In this document: positions 41,706 through 50,659 of the stretch, one piece after another
Layout of the letters: each line of letters opens with the position of its first letter
Position numbering within the stretch: position 1 is the first letter of the stretch
NCBI RefSeq assembly: GCF_030532915.1
Contig: NZ_JAUNKD010000018.1
Coordinates: 6,396 to 57,294 of the forward strand
Source of the DNA: Capnocytophaga sp.
GTDB lineage: Bacteria > Bacteroidota > Bacteroidia > Flavobacteriales > Flavobacteriaceae
DNA: 50,899 nucleotides
Reading direction: 5' to 3'
Made by a program: the position numbers and the translations under genes
The notes under the pieces: generated by a model
What the model was told of the DNA's origin: nothing
The model's database searches: none
What the model saw: the letters and a program-made list of their open reading frames with translations, nothing else

Positions 41706-41713
41706 TAACTTTG
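41706..41713 (+). promoter_or_regulatory. -7 box TAACTTTG before susC
   Basis: TAACTTTG lies 28 bases before the susC ATG at 41741. No TTTG is visible at the usual distance, so the promoter may need an activator, as many Bacteroidota polysaccharide-type loci do. Confidence 0.55.
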
Positions 41714-41740: not shown

Positions 41741-44700
41741 ATGAGAATAAAAATTTTACTACAGTTTATTTTTGTGTTTTTAGGAATGAGTCCTATGGTA
41801 GCACAAACATTATCTGTCAAAGGAGTTGTAACTGATGGTGGAGGCGTCCCTTTACCAGGGGCTAGTGTCGTAATTAAAGGCACTTCCAAAGGTGTCGCAA
41901 CAGATTTTGACGGCAATTACGAAATACAAGCCAAGAATGGCGATGTTTTAGAATTTTCTTCAATAGGATTTACCTCACAAACAAAAAAAATAGTTACTAC
42001 GGGGGGGGGTAAAACACTGATTATCAACACATCTCTTATTGAAGAAGCCAGTCAAATCGAAGAGGTTGTTGTGACAGGGTATGGAGGTATTCAGAAAAAA
42101 GCTAGTATTGTTGGCTCAATTCAAACAATCAGCCCGTCCGATTTAAAGGTACCTTCCGCTAATTTATCTACCGGATTTGCTGGGCGTATGGCAGGGGTTA
42201 TTGCTTTTCAACGAGGAGGACAACCCGGCGCTGATGGTGCTAATTTCTACATACGTGGTATTGCTACAATGAGTGGTGTAACCAGTCCACTTATTATTGT
42301 TGACGGGGTTCAGGTTTCAGCGAGTGATTTGAATGCCCTTGCTCCTGAGGTAATTGATAGTTTTACCATTTTAAAAGACGCTACGGCAACCGCTATCTAT
42401 GGGTCGAGAGGAGCTAACGGAGTAATGATTGTTACTACGAAATCGGGAGCTAATTTAGATAAACCGATTATAAACTTCCGTGTAGAGGGAACGATGTCGC
42501 AACCTACCACACTTCCTAAAATGGCTGATGGACCTACCTATATGAGATTGTACAATGAAGCTGCAAATAATCTCAGTTCGGGGGCTTTTCGATATACACA
42601 AGATCAAATACGCGGAACGGAACAAAACCTAAATCCGTATGTGTATCCCAATGTAAATTGGTATGATGAAATTTTCAAAAACCGCTCTTTCGGACAAAGA
42701 GTAAACTTCAATATTCGTGGTGGAGGTAAAAAATTAGATTACTTTATGAGTATCAATGCCACTCACGATGATGGAATGGTTAAAGGATTGAGCAAAGAAT
42801 ATTTTTCATTTGATAATAATATTAGTTTGAAAAAATATACTTTCCAAAATAATATTAATGCCCGATTAACAGAAAGCAGTAAAATTTCCTTACGTTTAAA
42901 CGCTCAATTACACGATTACCGAGGTCCCATCACTAATTCAGGAAATAAGGGACAGATAAGCATTAATGAGCTATTCGGAAAGGTTGTTGAACTACCTTCG
43001 GTAGATCACCCTATCAAATTTCCTGCCAAAGAGGGTGATGAACACGTAAGATGGGGAACGAATAGTGAACGATATGTCAAAAAGAACCCAATTGCTGAAT
43101 TAGTAAGTTCATATAAAGATAACTTCCAAAACACGGTAATTGCCAATTTGGAGTATGACCAAAAGTTAGATGTCCTTACACAAGGATTGCGTTTCAACGC
43201 CTTGGCATCATTTAAAAACTGGTCATCATCTTCTGTTTACAGAACAGCGCCTTACAATATGTATCTTCTAAATGGTTTTACGCTAACACCCAATGGAGAA
43301 TATGATTTAGATTTGGGGTTGGTAGGAACCAATCCTGAAAACATAGTATTAACCTCATCAGCGGGTACTTCCGGAGATAGAAAAATTTATTTGCAAGGAA
43401 TGTTCGATTATGCACGTACTTTCGGAGGAGTTCACGCAATCAATGCAATGGCAGTATATAACCAAGAACAATATGATTTGAATAATATTCACGCAGATAG
43501 TTCTTTCAAAATTTTGGTAAACTCTTTGCCTAAGCGTAAACAGACCATAGCAGGACGAATTTCGTACGCTTATGACAATCGATATATGATAGAGGTAAAT
43601 GCCGGATACAATGGTTCTGAAAACTTTGCTCCGGGTAAACGTTGGGGTTTTTTCCCGTCAGTAGCCGTTGGATATAATTTAAGTGAAGAACCTTTCTTTG
43701 CCGAACTCAAAGATATTGTTCAAGTATTTAAAATACGAAACTCTTGGGGGCTAGTAGGTAATGACCAAATTTCCAATAATCGTTTCCTTTATCTTTCAAG
43801 TATTGATTTAGGCTCTAATGACAGAAAATTTAGAACCGGAGTTGAACAAGATTATGAACTAAAAGGTCCTAAATACAATCGTTTTCAAAACAATGACCTT
43901 ACTTGGGAGGTTGGTGAAAAATTGAATTTTGGTATCGATTTAAGATTATGGAACAGCCTTGATTTTCATTTTGATATGTTCCGTGAACATCGTCGTAATA
44001 TATTTGAAAAACGAGGAACAATTGCTAAATATTTGGGTTCTGACGGAACTGATGTGTATGCAAACTCCGGAGAGGTTATCAATCAAGGGGTGGATCTATC
44101 AGTTAATTACGATAAAACTATCGGAAAAGATTTCAACTTGTCATTAAAAGGAACCTTTACGTATGCCCACAACCGCATCGTAAAAACGGATTTAAAATTT
44201 GTTGATTACCCTAATTTGTCAAAAGTTGGGCACAGTATAGGAATGCCGGGGATAACCAAAAATGGAATTGATTACGGGGTGCTGATTAGCGAGGGATTAT
44301 TCATCGACCAAGCAGAAGTACAAAATCGTGCACAACAGAAAATTAGTAGTAACGTAGCCGCCGGTGACCTGAAATATAGAGACATTCCTAACAAAGATGG
44401 CGTAGTTGACGGACAGATTGATGATAATGACCGTGTTTGGACAGGATATCCTACAACGCCTGAAATTATATATGGTTTAGGTATAAATGCTTCTTATAAG
44501 GGTTGGGATGCAGGAATATTTTTCCAAGGGGCTGCAAATACTTCGTTATTGATGAGTAATTTACATCCTTTCGGAACAAACAACTCTCGAAATATATTCC
44601 AGTGGATAGCCGATTCACATTGGAGTCCTGACAACCAAAATTTAAATGCGGCTTACCCTCGTTTGACAAAAGATGACCACGCAAATAATACCACGGCTTC

Positions 44701-44925: not shown

Positions 44926-46824
44926 ATGAAAAAAATAATATATACACTCGGAACTGCATTATTGCTATCGGTTACCTCTTCGTGTAATTTTTTAGATGTT
45001 GTTCCTGACGAAGCAGCTACTGAACAACAAGCATTTGCAACGGCGCGTGCGGCAGAGCAGTATTTATACTCTTGTTATTCTTTTATGCCCAATCCTCGTG
45101 CGGGAGTGCCAAGTTCACTTGATGCTTTCACGGGTGATGAGGTAATTACAGCTTTCGAACACGAAACTTTTGCAAAATTTCCCAAAGGAAACTTTACAGC
45201 TTCTGATCCGGTAATTTCTTATTGGAATACGCTATTTGGTGGTATTAAGCAATGTTACATATTAAAGAATAATATAGATAAAGTGCCTAACTTGGAACCA
45301 AGCAAAAAAGAAGATTATAGAGCACAAGCTGACTTTTTGATTGCTTATTTCCATTATTTGCAACTTCGTTGTTACGGACCTATTATCTTGGTAAAAGAAG
45401 AACCTAAAATTGACACGCCTGCCGAGTTATATTTAGGAAGAACCCCGCTTGACGAATCAGTGGAGTGGGTAGCGGCCTTGTTTGACAATGCAGCAGGAAG
45501 ATTACCTGCCAGAAGAGAAGGAACAAGTTTTGGTTTGGCAACATCAGTGGCAGCCAAAGCCTTGAAAGCCCGATTATATTTATTAGCGGCCTCTCCTCTT
45601 TTCAATGGAAATCCGGATTATGCAGGTTTCAAAAATTTGGACGGGGCATCAATGATTCCTACAAATTTTGATGCTAATAAATGGACAAAGGCAAAAATTG
45701 CTTACAAAGAAGCTATTGATTTGGCAGAAGCAAACGGATATCGTTTGTACGCCACAACCGATACGGCAGACCCTTCACAACAAGAGCCTACTAACCCAAC
45801 AGAGCGTGTGTTGCGTTTTAACATTACTGACAAATTTAGTAAAGAAACTATTTGGGCTGATACACGTCAAGAGGGACCTTATGAATTGCAAAACAAAGCG
45901 CGCCCACACTGGGAAGGACGCACTTGGAATGGAGTTGCACCTACTTTGACAATGTTAGATCGTTTCTACACCAAAAATGGATTACCTTTGCAGGAAGACA
46001 CCAACTTGGGATATTCTTATTCAGAACGCTTCAATGTGGTAGATATTCCGGCGGGAACAGCCTATGCCGAACCGGGGCAAAAAACATCTCAAATGAATAT
46101 GGATAGAGAACCTCGTTACTATGCTTGGATTTCTTTCCATAACGGATACTACGAAACCAAAGGAACGGCAACCGACAATAACGCAAACAAAGAGGCTTAC
46201 CAAGACCGTTTTAAAAGAGGAACTGATAAAGCCAAAATTTTGACTCAGTTTATGAAAAACGATAATTGTGGTAAAAAAGGACGTGTTAATAATTATTCTC
46301 CTTCGGGATTTTTGGTAAAAAAAGGTGTAATGCCTAAACTTACCCAAAACGCTAACAATTCAGGCTTGCAACACTATCCTTGGCCTGTAATTCGTTTAAC
46401 AGAGTTATATTTGGGGTATGCAGAGGCTTGTATAGAGTCAGGTGATTTGGCTGAGGCTAAAAGATACATTGATCCTATACGAACACGTGCGGGCATTCCT
46501 ACCGTAGATGCAGCTTGGGCTACTATAAGTGTAGTTCCTGACCAAACAAAAATGAGAGAAATTATTCGTCAAGAACGACAAATAGAGTTGTTTTTAGAAA
46601 ATCAAAACTTCTGGGATATGCGTCGTTGGAAATTGGCAGGGCATTATTTCAATGTTTTACCTCGCGGATTGAATGTTGAAGCTACTTCAATTGAGGCTTT
46701 TTCAAAAGAAACTGAGTTATCAACCATCATTCGTAAGTTTGAGTCGCCTACACACTATTTATTGCCAATTCCACAAGGGGAAGTTCAGGTTAATAGAAAA
46801 TTAGTTCAAAATCCTGGTTATTAA
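44926..46824 (+). CDS. SusD-family outer-membrane lipoprotein (632 aa)
   Basis: SusD caps SusC and binds substrate at the cell surface. A lipobox ends at Cys20 (TSSC). The TPR-like SusD fold follows, with the conserved 'FLDVVPDEAATEQQAFATARAAEQYLYSCYS' start, 'DYRAQADFLIAYFHYLQLRCYGPIILV', 'RLTELYLGYAEACIESGD' and the end 'RQERQIELFLENQNFWDMRRWKL' with the typical PIPQGEVQVN near the C-terminus. It starts nine bases after the SusC stop, so it is in the same operon. Confidence 0.94.
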   Translation: MKKIIYTLGTALLLSVTSSCNFLDVVPDEAATEQQAFATARAAEQYLYSCYSFMPNPRAGVPSSLDAFTGDEVITAFEHETFAKFPKGNFTASDPVISYWNTLFGGIKQCYILKNNIDKVPNLEPSKKEDYRAQADFLIAYFHYLQLRCYGPIILVKEEPKIDTPAELYLGRTPLDESVEWVAALFDNAAGRLPARREGTSFGLATSVAAKALKARLYLLAASPLFNGNPDYAGFKNLDGASMIPTNFDANKWTKAKIAYKEAIDLAEANGYRLYATTDTADPSQQEPTNPTERVLRFNITDKFSKETIWADTRQEGPYELQNKARPHWEGRTWNGVAPTLTMLDRFYTKNGLPLQEDTNLGYSYSERFNVVDIPAGTAYAEPGQKTSQMNMDREPRYYAWISFHNGYYETKGTATDNNANKEAYQDRFKRGTDKAKILTQFMKNDNCGKKGRVNNYSPSGFLVKKGVMPKLTQNANNSGLQHYPWPVIRLTELYLGYAEACIESGDLAEAKRYIDPIRTRAGIPTVDAAWATISVVPDQTKMREIIRQERQIELFLENQNFWDMRRWKLAGHYFNVLPRGLNVEATSIEAFSKETELSTIIRKFESPTHYLLPIPQGEVQVNRKLVQNPGY

Positions 46825-46843
46825 TTTTTAATATATTATCGTG

Positions 46844-47752
46844 ATGAGAAGATTATATACATTATTGACTATTATGCTCGTTGCTTCTTTAACGCTGGTT
46901 GCGTGTAAGAAAGATGAGCCAAAGATAAATCCTTCGGGAATTAAAAATTTACAATCCGAAGAACTGCCCGGACAAATTAAAATCACTTGGGAAAAGGAAG
47001 AACCTGTTACCTTTGAACATTTGAGATTCACTTACTTCGATAAACTTACTAAAAAAGAAGTATTACGTTTGGCAAGTATTTACAGTAATGAAATTATCAT
47101 ACCTAACACTCGAAAAAAATACGGAGAGTATGAGTTTAAAATTCAACCTGTAAGTGCTACCGGTACCGAGGGGCAAGTTTATACTTTCAAAGCAACTTCC
47201 GGTGCCGCTCCTGCCACATATCAACTGACAGAAGGAGATGATGCTGTTAAAGTAAATTTGAGTGTCGATATGTTGGAAACCAACGCACAAGAGCCTAGTG
47301 AAGGTCATATCGCCAATTTGATTGATGGAAATAATTATACATATTTCCACACAAAATGGTCTGGCTCACCAATTAATGCCCAACATTACTTTCAAATAAA
47401 TTTAACCGAATCTTTGCAGGGCTTTAAGTTTAATATTTCAACAAGACATAACGGTAACGGTAGCGGAGATGTTAAACGAATGAAAGTTGAGGCAAGTAAC
47501 GACGGAGAAACTTGGGTAGAAGTAGGTATTCAAACTTATGACTTGGCATCAAGAGCGGCAGATGACAGACGTAGAACATTCAACGGAAATCCTATTTTGA
47601 TGAATGCAAAATATTCAAAACTGCGTTTTACACCATTAGCTCGCAGAAATGCTGACCCACTAAACAAGAGCTTTTTTGATATGGGAGAGTTCAGTTTGTT
47701 TAATGAACCCGTATTGATTACTGATCCGGAAGCCCCAGCCGAGGGAGACTAA
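46844..47752 (+). CDS. Surface lipoprotein, DUF4959-like plus discoidin-like domain (302 aa)
   Basis: The signal peptide ends in a lipobox at Cys21 (LVAC). The next residues KKDEP match the C-x-K-(D/E)2 surface-export signal known from Capnocytophaga canimorsus lipoproteins. Residues 25-125 look like a DUF4959/Ig-like module (NLQSEELPGQIKITWEKEEP). Residues 135-290 resemble an F5/8 type C (discoidin) fold that binds carbohydrates (EGHIANLIDGNNYTYFHTKWSG, then VEASNDGETWVEVG). A GTG at 46841 could be the start; the ATG at 46844 is taken. It probably tethers glycan for the M60 protease. Confidence 0.85.
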   Translation: MRRLYTLLTIMLVASLTLVACKKDEPKINPSGIKNLQSEELPGQIKITWEKEEPVTFEHLRFTYFDKLTKKEVLRLASIYSNEIIIPNTRKKYGEYEFKIQPVSATGTEGQVYTFKATSGAAPATYQLTEGDDAVKVNLSVDMLETNAQEPSEGHIANLIDGNNYTYFHTKWSGSPINAQHYFQINLTESLQGFKFNISTRHNGNGSGDVKRMKVEASNDGETWVEVGIQTYDLASRAADDRRRTFNGNPILMNAKYSKLRFTPLARRNADPLNKSFFDMGEFSLFNEPVLITDPEAPAEGD

Positions 47753-47887: not shown

Positions 47888-50659
47888 ATGAAAAAAAAAC
47901 AGCTGCTTAAAATGATTATGTTTTTTGTTGTGGTAGTATTTACCGCAATAAATTGTAAAAAAGAAGTTCAAGAGGAACCTTTTTTGCGAGTTGAAAATGT
48001 CAATTTTGGAAAAGAAGCTACTTCACGAAAGGTGATTGTAGAAACCAATGTTCAAAATTGGACGGTTACTGCCCCTACGGAAATGTGGTTGGAAGTAAAA
48101 AAAGAAGGTAATGGCATAAAGGTGAGTGTTTCCGAAAATAAAGATCTCACTCGGAGTGCCAAATTTGTTGTTCAAGGCGGCGGACTATCCAAAGAAGTAA
48201 AAGTCACCCAAATAGGAGCAGCGCCTGATATAGCTATTGATAAAGACAATTTCAAGGTAGAGAAAATCGCCAATGATATTACAATAATTATCACAGCTAA
48301 TGTGTCGTATGAAATAACACTTCCTGATTGGATAACCAAAAAAGGTGAGGAAGTTTCAGGGCATACAACAAAATATATTTTCAGTATTGCTAAAAATGAA
48401 AGCGATAAGGACAGAAACGGAAAGATTGAGTTGCTTTCCAAAGGAGTAAATCCCGTAATTAGTAAAACAATACAAATCGTACAAAAAGGGCAATATACAA
48501 ATGATAATGTTTCCGCCATTGAAGGTGATATCAAACTAAAAATAGCCAGTGGTTCAGCTAGTTCTTCCCATCAAGGAGAAGATATTGAAAAATCGTTTGA
48601 TGGAGATATGTCCACAATCTATCACTCGCATTGGACTAATACCGGAACGAATTACTTCCCAATTACCCTCGAATATGTGTTAGAAAACGCTCAAAATGTC
48701 GATTATATGATGTATTATCCACGTACCGAAGGTTCCAATGGACATTTTAAAGAAGTGGAAATACACGTAAAAACAGAAGGTAGCGCTGATTACACAAAAA
48801 TTAAAGATTTTGACTTTCGAGGTAACGGAAAAGTAACTCGTGTTACATTTAATCCAATCTCTAATGCCAAATCGTTTAAATTGGTAATCAAATCGGGAAT
48901 AGGTCATCAAGAGCCTGGCTTTGCCGCAGCTGCCGAAATTGAGTTTTACAGAAAAAATACTGAAAATTTTGACCCCTCGGCAATTTTTACTGACATAACT
49001 TGTTCTGAATTAAAAGCGGGCATCACCGATGGGCAAATCCAAAATATTAGCAATCCATTCTATAAGGACATAGCTCAATATATGAAATTGGGGCAATATC
49101 CCTCTGAATTCCGTATTCAAGAATATCGTGCTTGGCCCAACCCAGATGAGTACCGCGACAGATATCGTATGCAGTATTCGTACAGTAATTTGGATAACCC
49201 CACAGGAATGAGTGCTATCGAAGGCGAAGATTTGGTCGTTTTTGTTGGGCCAACACAAGGCAGACAAATCCAGATTAAAATACAAAATTTAAATAAACCC
49301 GGTGGTGATGGCTTTAACGAAGCTTCGTATCATCCGCTGTATGAAGGTGTTAATAAATTCAAAGCTGGAAAATCCGGATTGATTTACTTGCAATACCAAA
49401 CTACTGATTATCAAAATGCTCCAAAAATCAAAGTGCATTTTGCCACCGGCAAAGTAAACGGCTATTTCGATAAAACTAAACACAATGCCGCTGATTGGAA
49501 TCGTTTAATCAACGCTGCTACCAACACTTATTTTGACGTAATTGGAGAAAAAGCGCATCTTTGTTTTCCGGTAGAAAGCTACAAAACCCATACCGGTTCA
49601 AGAGGAAAAGATCTTATCGACCAGTTTGATAAGCTTCTTGGACAAACTCACAAATTTATGGGGCTTACCAAAGAAAGAAATAAGGAACTTCCTAATAGAT
49701 CTTATTTCCAAGTAATGTACACCAGTTTTATGTATTGCACAGCTTACCGTACTTCTTATAACGTTGGCACGATGGAAACACTTTGTAATCCTGATAAAAT
49801 GGGTGCAGCAACCGATAAAACGCAAACATCTATTTGGGGTCCAGCCCACGAAATTGGACACGCGCATCAGGTAAAACCTACTTTTATGTGGATTGGTATG
49901 ACCGAATGCACGGTGAATATGAATTCAATGAATATTCAAACCGCTTGGGAAATCCCTACCCGTTTGGAAACCGAATCAATGCAAGGGGAAGGAGGATACA
50001 ACAACCGCTACGAAAAGGCTTACAACATAGGGATTGTTCCTAAAAAAGCCTTTGGTGATATAGGTGACGTATTCTGTAATTTAGTCCCTTTTTGGCAGTT
50101 GAATTTGTATTTTTCAAAAGCTAAAAACGACCCTGAGTTTTCTGTAAAATTATACGATAAGGTTCGTGAAGTTCCTGTGCAAAATCCTATCAATGATGGT
50201 AAGTGTCAGGTAGATTTCACCAAAATCATTTCCGAATTAACAGGAACTGATTTGACTTCATTCTTTGAAAAATGGGGATTTTATGTGCCGATAAACAAAC
50301 AAATACACGATTATGATAGGAGAAATCTTATAGTAACAGATGCGTATGCCGGTCAAATTAAAAACGAAATTACGGCTTTAAAATTGCTTGAAATTACGGA
50401 TAAAATAGAATATATTTGTGATAGCAACTGGACATATTTCAGAGATCAATCCCCAGTAGTGAAAGGAAATGCCACTAAAAACGGTAGCCGAGTGACTACT
50501 ACGGGTTATCAGAATGTAGTTGCCTACGAGGTGTATGAAGGCAATGAATTGATTTACGTTTCTAATAAAAATTCGTTTGATATAAAACGCTCCTTCGGTG
50601 CTGACACTCGTGTTTATGCCATTGCTTACAATGGAGAACGAACAGAGGTTACGTTTTAA
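47888..50659 (+). CDS. M60-family metallopeptidase lipoprotein with BACON and discoidin-like domains (923 aa)
   Basis: M60 peptidases cut proteins next to O-glycans, such as mucins. The signal peptide ends at Cys23 (INC, an unusual -1 Asn), so it should be a lipoprotein. Residues 35-115 and 117-200 are BACON-type modules. Residues 215-360 look like an F5/8 type C domain (HQGEDIEKSFDGDMSTIYHS). The catalytic domain starts near 370. The zinc motif is H654-E655-I-G-H658, with Glu673 14 residues after His658, matching HEXXH(8,28)E. With SusC/SusD next to it, this is a classic mucin- or O-glycoprotein-foraging locus. It likely sits on the cell surface. A strong terminator follows. Confidence 0.9.
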   Translation: MKKKQLLKMIMFFVVVVFTAINCKKEVQEEPFLRVENVNFGKEATSRKVIVETNVQNWTVTAPTEMWLEVKKEGNGIKVSVSENKDLTRSAKFVVQGGGLSKEVKVTQIGAAPDIAIDKDNFKVEKIANDITIIITANVSYEITLPDWITKKGEEVSGHTTKYIFSIAKNESDKDRNGKIELLSKGVNPVISKTIQIVQKGQYTNDNVSAIEGDIKLKIASGSASSSHQGEDIEKSFDGDMSTIYHSHWTNTGTNYFPITLEYVLENAQNVDYMMYYPRTEGSNGHFKEVEIHVKTEGSADYTKIKDFDFRGNGKVTRVTFNPISNAKSFKLVIKSGIGHQEPGFAAAAEIEFYRKNTENFDPSAIFTDITCSELKAGITDGQIQNISNPFYKDIAQYMKLGQYPSEFRIQEYRAWPNPDEYRDRYRMQYSYSNLDNPTGMSAIEGEDLVVFVGPTQGRQIQIKIQNLNKPGGDGFNEASYHPLYEGVNKFKAGKSGLIYLQYQTTDYQNAPKIKVHFATGKVNGYFDKTKHNAADWNRLINAATNTYFDVIGEKAHLCFPVESYKTHTGSRGKDLIDQFDKLLGQTHKFMGLTKERNKELPNRSYFQVMYTSFMYCTAYRTSYNVGTMETLCNPDKMGAATDKTQTSIWGPAHEIGHAHQVKPTFMWIGMTECTVNMNSMNIQTAWEIPTRLETESMQGEGGYNNRYEKAYNIGIVPKKAFGDIGDVFCNLVPFWQLNLYFSKAKNDPEFSVKLYDKVREVPVQNPINDGKCQVDFTKIISELTGTDLTSFFEKWGFYVPINKQIHDYDRRNLIVTDAYAGQIKNEITALKLLEITDKIEYICDSNWTYFRDQSPVVKGNATKNGSRVTTTGYQNVVAYEVYEGNELIYVSNKNSFDIKRSFGADTRVYAIAYNGERTEVTF

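Follow-up and report, generated by a model that had tools for sequence, protein, structure and literature searches.

The stretch of DNA analysed here (the window) is 50,899 nucleotides long and corresponds to G000:C50:6396-57294 in a Capnocytophaga genome of 2.66 Mb. It encodes a TonB-linked outer-membrane transporter of the SusC type, followed on the same strand by a susD gene, a gene for an F5/8 type C domain protein and a gene for an M60-like peptidase (Table 1). SusCD importers are surface-exposed and determine the range of host and dietary glycans that is usable by a Bacteroidota cell. The assignment of the transporter to the SusC/RagA family is supported by its signature region (TIGR04057, 65.3 bits against a cut-off of 46.2, G000:C50:48748), an N-terminal CarbopepD_reg-like domain, a plug (PF07715, residues 120-228 according to Pfam) and the adjoining SusD partner recognised by PF07980. 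SusC structures also appear among the PDB matches of the transporter.

TAnnTTTG is a promoter element of Bacteroidota, and a match to it, TAACTTTG, is found shortly upstream of susC. The window contains 95 such matches where 70 are expected, hence TAACTTTG is weak by itself.

Table 1. Coordinates of the features at the locus and of related tracts in SusC genes (window positions unless a contig is named)
Feature	Position	Strand	Basis or remark
TAACTTTG, match to TAnnTTTG	41706-41713	+	27 nt 5' of ATG
susC, TonB-linked outer-membrane transporter, 1058 aa	41741-44917	+	TIGR04057, CarbopepD_reg_2, Plug
CarbopepD_reg_2 (PF13715), residues 26-111	41816-42073	+	Pfam; contains G9
G9 tract	42001-42009	+	
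Out-of-frame stop TAA	42010-42012	+	directly abuts G9
Out-of-frame stop TGA, third frame	42018-42020	+	8 nt past G9
susD	44926-46824	+	PF07980, PF14322; begins 8 nt past susC
F5/8 type C domain protein	46841-47752	+	Pfam; DUF4959 match under its cut-off
M60-like peptidase with BACON and F5/8 type C domains	47888-50659	+	Pfam
SusC turn tracts of the window's genome (G000)	C50 (window), C24:45091, C5:75050, C8:28292, C17:72444		sequence at turn
Out-of-frame turn tracts (L166, L167, L183, L235)	G000:C5 (G8), G000:C8 (G8), G003:C143 (G9), G017:C178 (G10)		

The G tract in the N-terminal domain of SusC

The window holds a single run of nine G (G9). The run begins with the third base of codon 87 (ACG), includes the two GGG codons 88 and 89 and ends at the second base of codon 90 (GGT), so that the residues encoded are T-Gly-Gly-Gly. 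The only allele of this susC at hand is in frame, and with nine G the frame stays open for another ~2.9 kb. Both other frames end early, 0 and 8 nt past the run; a homopolymer of about eight or more within a reading frame and an early end of the alternative frames are both properties of slipped-strand (SSR) phase-variable loci. The preliminary description had reported the run at codons 87-90 in an open frame and a stop within a few codons upon loss or gain of one G, as the sequence confirms. It had also placed the tract between the N-terminal regulatory-like domain and the plug, and here it needs correction, as the tract lies inside CarbopepD_reg_2. According to an AlphaFold2 prediction for residues 22-230 (mean pLDDT 74, pTM 0.40; about 79 near the turn), the encoded glycines fall in a turn, with strands at residues 80-83 and 92-94 on either side. 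According to alignments, solved SusC chains are shorter by 4-7 residues in this region.

The length of the run is by itself only mildly unusual and constitutes weak evidence. Dinucleotide shuffles of the window gave an expectation of 0.08 G9, with 7 of 100 shuffles containing one, and Markov estimates range from 0.03 to 0.09; runs of seven G are not unusual (3 matches, 2.16 expected). The genome as a whole contains 12 distinct tracts of eight or more G, two of them copies of one repeat, and five of the 12 lie in SusC loops (binomial 5e-16), which places the position of the tract beyond chance. A chance run was rejected as an explanation, since position and codons argue otherwise in spite of the weak evidence from length.

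Tracts at the same turn across Capnocytophaga

Every SusC gene scoring over the TIGR04057 cut-off in five genomes (G000, G003, G006, G010 and G019) was included, and its N-terminal DNA was read. Nineteen of these 92 genes have G8 or G9 at the turn, distributed over the five genomes as 5/20, 4/13, 4/17, 3/22 and 3/20, respectively. The turn was placed by motif in 67 of the 92 genes. In the 25 others the longest G-run is at most 7 in the 750 nt 5' of the signature, and at most 5 in 23 of them. Nine further turn tracts are found in G004 (3), G015 (1) and G017 (5), giving at least 28 in 8 of the 20 genomes of the genus; this is a lower bound, as G8 tracts beyond the five surveyed genomes are included only in part. 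The count leaves out G009:C4:161972, which falls within a DNA match to the SusC N-terminus. G017:C151, whose DNA resembles a SusC N-terminus, was excluded for having stops in all frames. The next gene encodes SusD in all 22 tract genes examined out of the 28, the window gene included. A second type of SusC tract, located just after the N-terminal signal-like segment, was observed in G004:C9:22825 (L185, G10) and G017:C113:11832 (L232, G9), both in frame.

Codon choice at the turn differs from that in the rest of the same genes. Selected on the protein sequence, Gly-Gly-Gly turns make up 22 of the 67 loops placed by motif; 19 of these are encoded by an unbroken run of G8-G9, and in three (L297, L338, L348) other glycine codons interrupt the run. 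Over the remainder of these genes, two adjacent GGG codons occur in none of 25 Gly triplets (Fisher 2e-10 against 19/22 at the turn), GGGGGG makes up 2 of 194 Gly pairs and GGG 413 of 2454 Gly codons. The codons beside the tract vary from gene to gene. Two tract-less SusC genes of the window's genome have GCGGGAAGGGGT and ACAGGCAAGGGT at the turn, and these may be decayed tracts.

Twenty-four of the 28 turn tracts are in frame. The four that are out of frame (Table 1) are each followed by a barrel frame that stays open for 2.7-3.2 kb past the tract, with a SusD gene next. As the flanks vary, so does the in-frame length: G8 preserves the frame in G000:C17 and in three G003 genes, and so does G12 in G004:C16:43300, where it encodes four glycines. 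The out-of-frame G8 copy in G000:C8 differs by one G from its in-frame orthologue in G006:C3 (G9), the two being 81% identical over 1563 nt, tract included. The out-of-frame copy in G003:C143 also has in-frame orthologues, in G006:C7 (80%) and at G019:2080670 (79%). The in-frame fraction exceeds the one third expected of free drift, and the SusC tracts may thus have a low slippage rate or be maintained in the on state.

In all 19 tract genes of the survey both other frames are shut within 28 nt, and in 15 of them within 11 nt. The median distance to closure of the other frames is 41.5 nt in the 48 located tract-less genes (p 4e-6), a contrast between related genes in which the reference point is approximate for the 48. 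For these reasons we take the close out-of-frame stops beside the tracts as a hint of selection, not as proof of it.

Relatives of the tract genes and other G tracts

The nearest N-terminal relative of the window susC, G006:C9 (81% over 64 columns), reads SGSN at the turn and is without the tract, as are the relatives in C. cynodegmi and G005. DNA identity around the tract is mostly 72-85% among tract genes, and the N-terminal segments of two tandem G010 copies are 95% identical. Separate trees were built for the pieces on either side of the tract. They require 13 changes of the tract label for the piece before and 10 for the piece after, of which 3 and 6 (the latter in the plug tree), respectively, are forced by well-supported branches. 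The tract thus comes and goes in the SusC family, with gain and loss indistinguishable as the trees of the short N-terminal pieces have poor resolution. The best DNA matches of the window susC in G002 and G004 (positions 41741-42060 against L098 and L099) start past the N-terminal domain, at query positions 319 and 325; the N-terminus in G002 is of a different kind, a hint at exchange of N-terminal segments among SusC genes.

A scan of related SusC loci, made among the best 80 of 408 candidates, returned 77 loci, of which six from Capnocytophaga were set apart; one locus, L012, starts past the loop. None of the 71 loci of other genera carries G8 or longer at the loop, and three of the six Capnocytophaga loci do. 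G9 followed directly by TAA is present in 34 of the 397 genomes of the family sample. Thirty such loci were read, one per genome, and none of the 28 outside Capnocytophaga is in a SusC loop. Judged from these sequences, and within a sampling of one genome per species, the SusC-loop tract is a trait of Capnocytophaga. Two other genera of the family are rich in the G9TAA motif, namely g216 (G234 and G393; 7 and 32 matches, with 5 and 13 in reversed controls) and g42 (G060 and G280; 3 and 7 matches, with 0 and 3 in reversed controls); none of the loci read there is a SusC loop.

The 20 genomes of the genus contain 77 tracts of G9 or longer, 20 in SusC loops and 57 elsewhere. Many of the latter are intergenic or lie in frame within ordinary-looking genes, and G9 alone therefore proves nothing. 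Two tracts of G10, at G004:C18:118244 (L188) and G019:C1:1230672 (L237), separate halves of type I specificity (HsdS) genes that are in different frames, with Methylase_S on either side. These split HsdS genes look like a phase-variable restriction system. G-runs located 8-15 nt 5' of TAnnTTTG were observed at G010:C1:1093744 (G15), 1457952 (G12) and 1460932 (G10) and at G015:C124:27941 (G9). Three of the four are upstream of small secreted or lipoprotein genes with signal peptides, and these runs are possible promoter-spacing switches.

Further tracts were noted in other contexts. A homologous gene carries G9 in G001:C13:435878, G13 in G009:C14:40727 and G21 in G011:C23:124420, the last two out of frame, and the G009 copy gave no Pfam match. 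An MBOAT acyltransferase gene at G015:C34:2808 (L221) carries G17 close to its end, with differing frames. Two related genes of G019 (C1:2581021 and 2593265, L241) have G9 and G10, both in frame, and Pfam returned no match for the one searched. A 186-bp intergenic repeat with one G9 per copy is found at G000:C61:52230 and G000:C67:20225, the copies being 99.5% identical.

A candidate multi-gene phase switch

We consider it probable (about 0.8) that the G9 of the window belongs to a set of slipped-strand contingency tracts distributed over multiple SusC genes in Capnocytophaga. Support for this reading, all of it from sequence, consists of the tract itself, its position at a turn shared by 19 of 92 genes, the G-only codons, the out-of-frame copies and the orthologue pair differing by one G; also counted in its favour are the G12 tract that keeps its frame, the early closure of the other frames, the SusD gene next to every tract gene examined and the presence of poly-G in other Capnocytophaga genes of a typical switch kind. 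The preliminary description had proposed an on/off phase switch for a single SusCD-M60 locus, while allowing that the run might be fixed and neutral. The proposed switch is thus supported, and its scope is better described as a multi-gene SusC set. The same description had named a tract broken by synonymous changes in relatives as an argument against switching. Such breaks do occur in three of the 22 Gly-Gly-Gly loops, and the nearest N-terminal relative has SGSN and no tract, observations that count in part against the switch.

According to this proposal, replication slippage in living cells would add or drop a G in the tract. In-frame lengths would give the full SusC with three or four glycines in the turn. 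Other lengths would lead to a stop a few codons on and leave a stub of ~90 residues, made up of the signal peptide and the larger part of a small periplasmic domain; with such a stub there would be no transporter and transport would presumably be lost, until reverse slippage restored it. The downstream susD and M60 genes might be affected as well, through polarity. As several SusC genes per genome each have a tract, a population would consist of cells with different working sets of SusCD importers, that is, importer expression would be combinatorial. We lean slightly towards an extended form of this proposal, a combinatorial importer phasome. It envisages a G-run cassette at a permissive SusC turn, repeatedly gained and lost and accompanied by close out-of-frame stops, with 3-5 independently slipping SusC genes in each of the five surveyed genomes giving each cell its own importer set. 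Such a phasome would allow hedging of nutrients, through glycan or protein importers, and possibly of phage or antibody attack on SusC.

An explanation without a switch, which we regard as improbable, is that the G-run is a fixed neutral spelling of the glycine turn, spread as the N-terminal segment of SusC was duplicated or exchanged. It agrees with the preponderance of in-frame tracts (24 of 28), with N-terminal segments that are at times very similar, such as those of the tandem G010 copies, and with in-frame G9 in ordinary-looking genes. It agrees less well with the retention of the G-run in 19 of 22 triplet loops while DNA identity is mostly 72-85% and the codons beside the tract differ, or with the existence of out-of-frame copies. 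Moreover, the at least 10-13 label changes on the trees, six of them forced by well-supported plug-tree branches, imply that the tract did not spread as one unchanged block. The out-of-frame lengths could also be sequencing or assembly errors at homopolymers, every copy being truly in frame. Assemblies do break at G-runs, and two G003 contigs start with the run, but errors would account neither for the single turn position nor for the use of GGG codons, and G8, G9, G10 and G12 all occur, between flanks that differ in the tract length needed to stay in frame. We hold this account to be quite unlikely.

Long homopolymers can provoke transcriptional slippage. Slippage at the RNA level, by polymerase or ribosome, would yield some full-length protein at any tract length and make the tract a dimmer instead of a switch. 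The barrel frames of the out-of-frame copies are open, in keeping with this, yet the tight stops in both other frames fit an on/off outcome, and we give the dimmer little credence. An invertible promoter, with the G-run incidental, seems highly improbable as the switch. DNA-invertase phase variation of SusC/SusD is known from Bacteroides fragilis (cited in PMC11868660), but upstream of the window susC we found only imperfect, A+T-rich inverted repeats, the best with arms 72-84% complementary, and no good inverted repeats around the promoter.

The slipped-strand reading of the SusC tracts finds its closest parallel in Neisseria meningitidis, where hmbR is on at 9G within a range of 7-15G and hpuA is on at 10G (excerpt of PMC3352162). 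In both cases poly-G lies inside the reading frame of genes for TonB-dependent outer-membrane receptors or their partners. By analogy, the best reading is that the SusC tracts would work like these switches. The neisserial examples concern one or two haemoglobin receptors of a proteobacterium, whereas here many SusC paralogues of a flavobacterium, known from their sequences, share the tract at one homologous turn. In B. fragilis, too, SusCD importers vary between cells, by DNA inversion and not by the tract slippage proposed for Capnocytophaga. In a literature search at title and abstract level, no paper described phase variation in Capnocytophaga or a SusC gene switched by poly-G, consistent with the preliminary description, which knew of none for such a locus; Bacteroidota terms are absent from the excerpt of PMC2831843. 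If correct, a slippage-based multi-gene switch at one protein turn would represent a second route to SusCD phase variation, and apparent SusC pseudogenes in Capnocytophaga genomes would be resting states. The poly-G phasomes of Campylobacter and Neisseria, as far as excerpted accounts describe them, likewise comprise several G-tracts per genome that are independent of one another and lie in restriction systems and surface genes. The Capnocytophaga tracts differ from these in belonging to another phylum and in the prominence of one transporter family at one position, which accounts for 20 of the 77 tracts of G9 or longer.
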